Assembly: GCA_005801385.1 (NCBI GenBank) | Contig: SYEM01000249.1 | Location: forward strand, 1-33,284 | DNA length: 33,284 nt | Reading direction: 5' to 3' | Origin: Verrucomicrobiales bacterium | Lineage (GTDB): Bacteria; Verrucomicrobiota; Verrucomicrobiia; Limisphaerales; UBA9464 | In this document: positions 6,378-27,548 of the stretch, piece after piece | How positions within the stretch are numbered: position 1 is the first letter of the stretch | Layout: each line of letters starts with the position of its first letter | Translations under genes and position numbers: made by a program | The notes under the pieces: generated by a model | Seen by the model: only the letters and a program-made list of their open reading frames with translations | The model's database searches: none | What the model was told of the DNA's origin: nothing

Positions 6378-6417
6378 GGGAGATCGGGCCCGGAGGAGAA
6401 ACCGGAAAAAAGGGGAG

Positions 6418-6743
6418 GAGACTCACGCGAAGGCGCGGAGACGCGAAGGAAGACCATTTCAGGGAGGGATCGGCTGCACCGCAGAACCATGCAGGACACC
6501 CCGGAATGCCCGGAATACCGCAGACATGGCGCCATCGCCTCGAATTTCGCACTACCTCACGGAGGGCGGCAGACATCCGAGAACCCCAACTCGGCGGCTT
6601 CCCCCATTCCTTCTTCCCAATCCCCCGCTTTGAAAATCCGCCTCTCCGCTCCCCTCTTTTTACTCGGCGTCTCCGCGCCTCCGCGTGAGTCCCCTTCCCC
6701 CCATCCGCGTTCCTCGAAGGCACTTGAAGGAGCAGGCATCCCC
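6418..6743. mobile_element. MITE-like repeat, left copy, flanking the GxxExxY gene
   Basis: This 326-bp segment is repeated directly, with few differences, at 7217-7544. Within it, 24-bp terminal inverted repeats run from 6421-6444 (starting ACTCACGCGAAGGCG) to 6667-6690 (ending CTCCGCGTGAGT), with one mismatch between arms; about 50 more bases to the right are also duplicated. It has no coding capacity of its own. The structure suits a non-autonomous element moved by a transposase encoded elsewhere, or a repeat that recombines with its partner. No target-site duplication is obvious. It fills the 424-base gap between gntK and the GxxExxY gene. Confidence 0.8.
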
Positions 6744-6789
6744 AAATCTGGCGATGGAATTGCCACGGAACCCCCATGGAATTGCGCGC

Positions 6790-7212
6790 ATGGAAACCAA
6801 ACCCGAAAACTCTCCGCACGAATCACTGCCGGCTGTCATTGTCGATGCGGCGCTGCAGGTGCACCGCGAGCTCGGACCCGGGTTGCTCGAGCAGGTCTAC
6901 GAGTCGGTCCTCGCCCGGGAACTTGAATGCCGGGGACTCACCGTGCGACGCCAGGTCTCGATCCCGATCCGGTACCGGGACCTCCATTTTCCGGAAGGGT
7001 TCCGTGCGGACATGATCGTCCAGGATGAGGTCCTCCTCGAACTCAAATCGGTGGAGCAGCTGTCCCGCGTTCACTCGAAACAGGTACTGACCTATCTGAA
7101 GCTCACCGGCCTGCGGCTGGGGTTTCTGCTCAACTTTGGAGCCCCGTTGATGAAGGACGGCATTGAACGCATCGCTCTCGGGTATGTCCCGCGGGTGGCA
7201 CGCGTGGCATGA
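6790..7212 (+). CDS. GxxExxY protein (PDDEXK-like nuclease fold)
   Basis: This 140-residue protein carries the family signature G31-LL-E34-QV-Y37 in ELGPGLLEQVYESVLARELE. A PDDEXK-type core follows: D74 in GFRADMIV, E84-L-K86 in LLELKSVE, and HSKQVLTYLKLTGLRLGFLLNFG with Q98 and Y102. The start at 6790 gives the usual short N-terminus; longer in-frame starts upstream run into the repeat. GxxExxY proteins are widespread, usually single copies of unknown function, often in repeats or accessory positions. Nuclease activity is inferred from the fold and not proven for the family. Here the gene is bracketed by direct MITE-like repeats, and its stop codon lies 6 bases before the right copy, so gene and repeats may move together. 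Confidence 0.88.
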   Translation: METKPENSPHESLPAVIVDAALQVHRELGPGLLEQVYESVLARELECRGLTVRRQVSIPIRYRDLHFPEGFRADMIVQDEVLLELKSVEQLSRVHSKQVLTYLKLTGLRLGFLLNFGAPLMKDGIERIALGYVPRVARVA

Positions 7213-7216
7213 AGAG

Positions 7217-7544
7217 GGACTCACGCGAAGGCGCGGAGACGCGGAGGAAGACCATTTCAGGGAGGAATCGGCTGCACCGCAGAACCATTCAGGACACCCC
7301 GGAATGCCCGGAATACCGCAGACCCGGTGCCATTGCCTCGGATTTGGCCGTGCCTCAGGGAGAACGGCAGCCATCCGAGAACCCCAACCCGGCGGCTCCC
7401 CCCCATTTCCCTCTTCCCAATCCCCCGCTTTGAAAATCCGCCTCTCAGCTCCCCTCTTTTTACTCGGCGTCTCTGCGTCTCCGCGTGAGTCCCCTTCCCC
7501 AACCCTCCGAGTTCCTCGAAGGCACTTGAAGCAGCGGGCATCCC
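7217..7544. mobile_element. MITE-like repeat, right copy, flanking the GxxExxY gene
   Basis: This is the second direct copy of the 6418-6743 element. The inverted ends are at 7219-7242 and 7467-7490, with three mismatches between arms. Long internal blocks match the left copy, including the stretches beginning AGGAAGACCATTTCAGG and CCCAATCCCCCGCTTTGAAA. It fills nearly all of the 347-base gap before the M42 peptidase gene. Its right end supplies the TTGAAG that may act as the -35 of that gene. Confidence 0.8.
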
Positions 7545-27392: not shown

Positions 27393-27524
27393 GGCGGGGA
27401 AGCAAGTCGAGAGCTGACGGCTGAAAGTTCAAACCCGGCTGGGCCGTCCCCATGTTGCGAATCACGGCAGCTCCGAACCCGAAGATCCTGGTGGCCCACG
27501 TCTTCACAATCTCCTCCCCCCTTC

Positions 27525-27548
27525 GCGTCTCCGCGTCCCTGCGTGAGT
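27525..27548. repeat. Solitary MITE-type terminal repeat
   Basis: GCGTCTCCGCGTCCCTGCGT followed by GAGT matches the right inverted end of the elements at 6418 and 7217. No left end lies within the 130 bases upstream, so this is a decayed or partial copy. It sits about 30 bases before the start of the spermidine-synthase-like gene, in its leader or promoter region. Confidence 0.6.

Follow-up and report, generated by a model that had tools for sequence, protein, structure and literature searches.

The locus described here raises the question of why a gene for a small GxxExxY protein is bracketed by two long direct repeats and whether the gene and the repeats belong to one system. It lies in the window, the whole stretch of 33,284 nucleotides that was analyzed, which lies on contig C219 of a genome (G000) of 3.88 Mb in 330 contigs that is 80% complete. 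The first-pass annotation had described direct repeats of about 330 bp around the gene, and these were confirmed. The left copy was at positions 6412–6742 and the right copy at 7214–7544, both on the forward strand, and the two copies were 331 nt long and 90% identical (E value of 7e-126 for the second copy). The stop codon of the gene, however, had been placed 6 bases before the right copy, and the distance is in fact 1–5 nt, depending on the chosen copy start. The terminal inverted ends assigned to each copy are also present, but their length had been given as 24 bp, and they are 34–40 nt long, 85% complementary and have cores of 27 nt.

Each 331-nt repeat contains an inverted pair of ~27-nt arrays with three ACGCRRAG words per array. 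In the left copy, the 5′ arm CTCACGCGAAGGCGCGGAGACGCGAAG (6422–6448, +) matched the array consensus at 27/27 positions and the inverted 3′ arm (6663–6689, −), 100 bp upstream of the gene, matched it at 26/27 positions. This copy is a gene-less unit made of a 5′ word array, ~200 bp and a 3′ word array, together with another ~29 nt. The right copy is a second gene-less unit, of which the 5′ arm (7220–7246, +, 27/27) begins 7 nt past the stop codon of the gene and the 3′ arm is found at 7463–7489 (−, 26/27); it ends right before an M42 peptidase gene (7560). The outermost pair of arms, 6422–6448 (+) and 7463–7489 (−), encloses the gene and has the canonical orientation. The direct repeat extends ~29 nt beyond the outermost word CTCCGCGT, and this stretch coincides, in the right copy, with the M42 peptidase gene leader. 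Given this overrun, the two copies appear to stem from a segmental duplication and not from separate insertions. It is unusual for two whole gene-less units to stand in direct orientation, and a duplication seems to be the best explanation of this form.

The GxxExxY/PDDEXK_3 gene at 6790–7212 (+) is the sole open reading frame between the repeats, and it was the only GxxExxY gene found in the search of this 80% complete genome. Its product of 140 amino acid residues scored 139.1 bits against TIGR04256 (cut-off 35) and 139.8 bits against PF13366 (cut-off 22). Thus, the cargo that the first-pass annotation had called PDDEXK-like is a full member of the family. The protein possesses G19, E22, Y25, D62, E72, K74, and Q86, which were found in 228–234 of 234 relatives, and the active-site residues D62, E72, K74, and Q86 were kept in 231–234 of the 234 genes. 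The predicted catalytic D, E, and K are encoded at 7009–7011, 7039–7041, and 7045–7047 (+), respectively. The AF2 model (pLDDT 93.5) displayed a restriction-endonuclease-like alpha/beta fold. Its matches among solved structures included Cas4 (SSO0001; 4ic1, Z 8.0), Hjc (1gef, Z 6.7), and McrC (Z 6.3) as well as AF1548, XisH, and restriction enzymes, and a sequence search of the solved structures found no relative of GxxExxY. The Z values are middling, and the catalytic residues and the Pfam match concur with them in placing the modeled protein among the PD-(D/E)XK nucleases. The polypeptide length of GxxExxY proteins was 125–145 amino acid residues. A longer protein of 266 amino acid residues, encoded in G032 (L296:660-1457), scored 77.8 bits against TIGR04256 and had an unrelated C-terminal extension.

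The repeats had also been called MITE-like. Only the end arrays are dispersed, and the full 331-nt unit is not. The array consensus GGGGACTCACGCGGAGACGCGGAGACGCGGAGGAAGAAGAG had 49 BLAST matches in the genome, including the arrays of the repeats themselves, and ~45 of them were elsewhere. The full unit was present only twice, with both copies at this locus, and the 330-bp repeat was therefore rejected as a dispersed MITE. At several loci, the dispersed arrays form convergent pairs 235–400 bp apart. Comparison of the interiors of these pairs revealed no mutual similarity except for a nested second repeat, and the possibility that gene-less interiors are decayed GxxExxY genes was rejected since such similarity was not found. 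A second dispersed repeat, ~45 nt around GTGATGCAGGGCACTGCATCACCCACC, was found within or next to several ACGC units of this genome (L004, L012, L015, L022, L029, and L030). In the window, one further dispersed arm with words of this family (27521–27547, −, 26/27) stands alone in a short intergenic gap between the genes for a GFO/IDH/MocA oxidoreductase and a protein with a spermine-synthase domain. The genome has one gene in an ACGCRRAG setting, and ACGCRRAG was the sole array type present in it.

GxxExxY genes were found in 69 of the 145 genomes of the phylum to which the window belongs, none of them closely related to G000, with 1–15 diverged genes per genome; the contig scan for the family was run with an alignment of 8 sequences. 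When the flanks of 30 genes were read, nearly all had an array of short words upstream and its reverse complement downstream. The words varied by gene and included ACAGAG, ACGGAG, ACGAAG, GCAAAG, GCCAAG, ACAGGAT, ACGAAA, GCGAAT, and others. Because the word varies from gene to gene, pairing was tested without a presupposed word. For each gene, the 300 bp on its upstream side were compared with the 300 bp on its downstream side, and the best local inverted match was scored, with a threshold of ≥13. Among 139 genes sampled from this and many other phyla, archaea included, 77% had paired arms, compared with 10% for swapped flanks and 3% for windows 500–800 bp off. In an independent hold-out of 75 genes, the corresponding values were 81, 5.4, and 1.4%, and other genes at the same loci were paired in 4.1% of 74 cases. 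About 20% of the GxxExxY genes had no detectable arms. A scan of relatives for the word of the window alone caught only 7 of 30 loci, and the weak association that it implied was rejected as misleading, since the word differs by gene. Thus, the enrichment of GxxExxY genes beside repeat ends, for which the first-pass annotation had suggested a check, was found across phyla, and the outcome that it had named as fatal to its proposal, repeats unassociated with GxxExxY genes, was not the one observed.

The arms are inverted as a rule. Usually, a single pair of short, mutually inverted arrays directly surrounded the gene, with 99 of 116 pairs in the canonical orientation, so that direct repeats of ~330 bp, which the first-pass annotation had taken as the anatomy of the locus, were rejected as the general form. 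In the culturable Bacteroides finegoldii (TSDC17.2-1.1), for instance, the gene for WP_032839887.1 lies between radA and the gene for an FAD-dependent protein, and its arms are TTCACCACAGAGGACGCAGAGGACACGGAG and CTCTGTGACCTCTGTGTCCTCTGTGGTGAA. The GxxExxY gene of Sphingomonas parapaucimobilis (NZ_CP155749.1, L350:871-1299) lies between fabD and fabG; its 5′ arm CACGCGAAGGCGCGAGGACGCGAAG was present and its 3′ arm was not detectable. At five other loci (L042, L045, L049, L050, and L100), a small hairpin CCGCTTCGCTGG (ACCACCCGCTTCGCTAGAGG...) interrupts the outermost word.

The distribution of arrays among genomes was assessed by tallying exact triple arrays of CACAGAG, CACGGAG, or CACGAAR in the 145 genomes. 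Such arrays were found in 41 genomes, of which 39 had a GxxExxY gene (base rate 69/145, p = 4e-14); given that gene and array presence both track clades, this and the other Fisher p-values overstate independence. The arrays were confined to the gene-bearing genomes in 496 of 503 cases, and G071 and G115 had 2–5 arrays with no GxxExxY gene detected. The reversed patterns served as controls: one of them matched no more than 6 times, another once, and the last never. Moreover, arrays of a given word were more common where a sampled gene had that word (mean 5.9 vs. 2.1, p = 2e-7). For instance, G086, whose genes have the words ACAGAG and ACGAAR, contained 21 and 26 matching arrays, respectively, and none of ACGGAG, and G080, with two ACGGAG genes, contained 20 ACGGAG arrays and none of the other words. 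Many gene-less copies are hairpins of 75–110 nt, with dG of about −36 to −70 kcal/mol, and others are single arms. The hairpins follow the layout AAC-CACAGAG-n-CACAGAG-nn-CACAGAG, an unrelated loop of 20–50 nt and the reverse complement. Different from the hairpins of G086 and G088, ~10 near-identical single arms CACAGAGGACACAGAGAGCACAGAG of G125 (L315–L320) had no inverted partner; these may be remnants or a one-armed form.

The layout of the gene-less hairpins is shared with REPINs (PMC3116915), and 38 of the 41 array-bearing genomes also had a Y1 gene. The arrays might therefore be REP-like repeats moved by RAYT/Y1 transposases, inside which GxxExxY genes merely sit. Y1/RAYT transposases were found in 102 of the 145 genomes. 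Among genomes with GxxExxY genes, however, Y1 had no effect on the presence of arrays (p = 0.69), whereas among genomes with Y1, arrays were present in 36 of 62 with GxxExxY genes and in 2 of 40 without (p = 1.5e-8). G017, with two GxxExxY genes and no Y1 detected, contained 89 arrays. Word arrays were located within 250 bp of 173 of 221 GxxExxY genes (78%) but beside only 4 of 20 Y1 genes, which is the background rate (33/167). The word also covaries with the GxxExxY protein, as described below. Y1/RAYT is thus unsupported as the agent of the arrays, and we regard this explanation as highly improbable.

Orthologous loci show that arms and gene are gained as a unit, as judged from empty sites at two junctions. 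In the genus of G081, a 430-bp element consisting of arms and gene lies between two almost overlapping transporter genes, and the same junction is empty in five congeners. At this junction, G032 contains the gene for the 266-residue GxxExxY protein, of which the inverted arms (TTTACAAAATCATGAACAGCAAAATCATTTT and the inverse sequence) are unrelated to those of the 430-bp element, and G196 contains a gene-less hairpin-like element of ~75 nt. The occurrence of unlike elements at one junction indicates that elements with different words entered independently. The second junction was followed through a genus of 21 genomes, where at least nine species retain the gene and G210 lacks it. Synonymous sites there are near saturation, nonsynonymous divergence ranged from 0.07 to 0.26, and dN/dS was 0.03–0.15 where computable, which indicates purifying selection. 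The words at this locus are ACGAAA, ACGGAA, and GCGAAT, and both arms switch together. The species with ACGGAA carry T at residue 2, and the others carry S or C.

The joint gain of gene and inverted ends at orthologous sites and the existence of gene-less derivatives with the same ends are also features of an IS-like transposon, of which the arms would be the terminal inverted repeats, the nuclease the transposase and the gene-less units MITEs formed by internal deletion. The copies of the gene do not fit this explanation. Their mean identity was 42% within genomes as well as between genomes, and only 1 of 111 same-genome pairs exceeded 80% identity. Since copies that share a genome differ as much as copies from separate genomes, amplification of the gene form in the manner of an insertion sequence does not occur; the gene-less arms do multiply. 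Moreover, members of one genus retain the gene at the same site under purifying selection. No target-site duplication was visible at the two empty sites inspected, where divergence is 15–25%, and no transposition intermediate was observed. Finally, the family was found in 8 of 72,556 plasmid records, in none of 50,697 phages and in viral contigs with 3 matches, by which a phage or plasmid origin is also unsupported. An IS-like transposon is therefore unlikely.

The arms could also serve the gene without any mobility, either as operators or transcript hairpins to which the protein would bind, or at which it would cut, to regulate its own mRNA, or as self-sites of a restriction-like defense nuclease. 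The arms adjoin the gene, starting at a median of 7 nt past the stop codon, and the gene is under strong purifying selection. The neighboring genes are mostly co-oriented with the GxxExxY gene (74:16 upstream and 58:23 downstream), so that read-through transcripts would hold both arms. Such a role alone, however, leaves the tens of gene-less arrays elsewhere in a genome unexplained, as well as the unrelated elements gained at one junction in three species, and GxxExxY proteins matched none of the anti-phage defense models searched. Autoregulation or defense as the whole explanation is thus quite improbable.

The similarities among proteins and among arms were correlated (Mantel rho 0.44), and 500 permutations peaked at 0.14. 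Column analysis of the first set tied base 4 of the word to residues 2–3 of the domain, which are part of the LTE/LSN stretch at the start of helix 1. G at base 4 occurred with T at residue 2, or with S followed by E or R, and A occurred with S at residue 2 followed by N, H, K, or Y, or with A or G at residue 2. This rule was fixed as a prediction before it was tested on held-out genes, among which T at residue 2 occurred with G at base 4 in 19 of 20 cases and the rule table was [[22,3],[8,21]] (p = 8e-6). On a tree built from 160 proteins, 15 phylogenetically independent contrasts agreed with the association and 1 contradicted it (p = 5e-4). When every column was scanned, columns 2 and 3 came first and second. 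A reading of base 6 by R60 was dropped, because the strong raw association was confounded by phylogeny (2 vs. 0 contrasts). The window protein has P-A at residues 2–3 and its word has G or A at base 4; it is no test of the code. The covariation strongly suggests that the GxxExxY protein recognizes its word, probably by direct binding through residues 2–3. The covariation also makes an action of the nuclease on the repeat ends, about which the first-pass annotation had speculated, the best-supported reading, although we infer it from sequence comparison.

We consider it likely, with a probability of roughly 0.7, that GxxExxY genes and the surrounding word arrays form one system in which the nuclease reads the word and spreads word-bounded elements. 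The N-terminus of the first helix, i.e., the LTE/LSN stretch, would read the word of 6–7 nt, and three consecutive words would make one arm. Two opposed arms would bracket either a gene, giving an element of ~430 bp and more, or a short loop, giving a hairpin of 75–110 nt. Cutting or nicking at the arms by the nuclease, combined with replication and repair by the host, would insert new arm-bounded copies, mostly at gene-gene junctions. Dispersal would be mainly of gene-less copies, presumably mobilized by the nuclease, and occasionally of the gene, which would normally stay diverged and non-amplifying while the gene-less arms amplify, as in REPIN-RAYT systems. In the window, the nuclease is predicted to recognize the ACGCRRAG words in both units and in the ~45 dispersed copies. 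On a broader scale, we are inclined to think, with some reserve, that GxxExxY proteins are sequence-specific nucleases with a readable code and underlie a second class of REPIN-like elements in bacteria and archaea, which arose independently of the first and comprises many word lineages. A large fraction of the intergenic repeats of the CTCTGTGG, CTTCGTGG, and CTTTGCG types in several phyla would then probably stem from this class.

Bacterial genomes often contain short intergenic repeats, and few of those beyond the REP/RAYT group have a known agent. Our results connect a very common protein family with several abundant word-array repeats found across many phyla and in some archaea. Given that each GxxExxY gene carries its own predicted substrate on both flanks, the link is testable. 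If the code is true, proteins of 125–145 amino acid residues would be naturally diversified, small, sequence-specific DNA-binding nucleases whose targets are legible from their flanks. For annotation, GxxExxY genes and word hairpins belong together as one element. A repeat-and-nuclease system similar to REPINs and RAYTs with an unrelated enzyme is apparently undescribed in open-access papers. Within that literature, with subscription journals and preprints outside the scope, there were only two passing mentions of GxxExxY and no description of its function or of the flanking arrays, and queries with the repeat sequences returned only eukaryotic primer papers.

Among known systems, insertion sequences also have inverted ends, but near-identical gene-bearing copies in one genome, which are typical of them, were represented here by 1 of 111 pairs. 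The Rpn/YhgA-like proteins (PF04754) are PD-(D/E)XK nucleases with paralogs and a link to RecA-independent recombination; independent insertions at one place are reported for them, and RpnA cleaves with little sequence specificity (PMC5350276). They belong to a Pfam family separate from that of GxxExxY, and the abstract mentions no cognate word arrays (PMC5350276). The closest solved folds (Z 5.9–8.0) are those of XisH (the fdxN element excision controlling factor), the Hjc Holliday junction resolvases, and Cas4. Similar to GxxExxY, they are small DNA-processing PD-(D/E)XK proteins; a sequence relation is undetectable, and the match is one of shared fold only.

The system most similar to that of GxxExxY is REPIN-RAYT, which consists of REP doublets and Y1 HUH transposases (PMC3116915; PMC8049555). 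Similar to RAYT genes, GxxExxY genes lie between inverted copies of short repeats that are more common in gene-bearing genomes, are not amplified within genomes, and are nearly absent from plasmids and phages. RAYT genes are single-copy and vertically inherited; GxxExxY genes may be kept vertically too, as suggested by one locus retained across a genus, but number 1–15 diverged copies per genome. Similar to REPINs, gene-less doublets with variable spacers form hairpins in extragenic space, of 75–110 nt here. Different from RAYTs, GxxExxY proteins match PF13366 and not PF01797, and an HUH-like motif was found in 3 of 234 proteins. Different from REPs, which are palindromes of 20–40 nt, the arms are arrays of direct words of 6–7 nt. 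The GTAG or CGTC tag of REPs is not a feature of them either: GTAG/CTAC was found in 8 of 116 arms, with CGTC not counted separately. Moreover, there are often several diverged GxxExxY genes per genome (up to 15), each with its own word, and the word tracks identifiable residues of the protein. By analogy, the layout and population behavior of GxxExxY elements match those of REPINs and RAYTs (PMC3116915; PMC8049555; PMC3733652). Given that they have neither a Y1 HUH enzyme nor tagged palindromic REPs, GxxExxY elements would work like REPIN-RAYT systems without being members of them.
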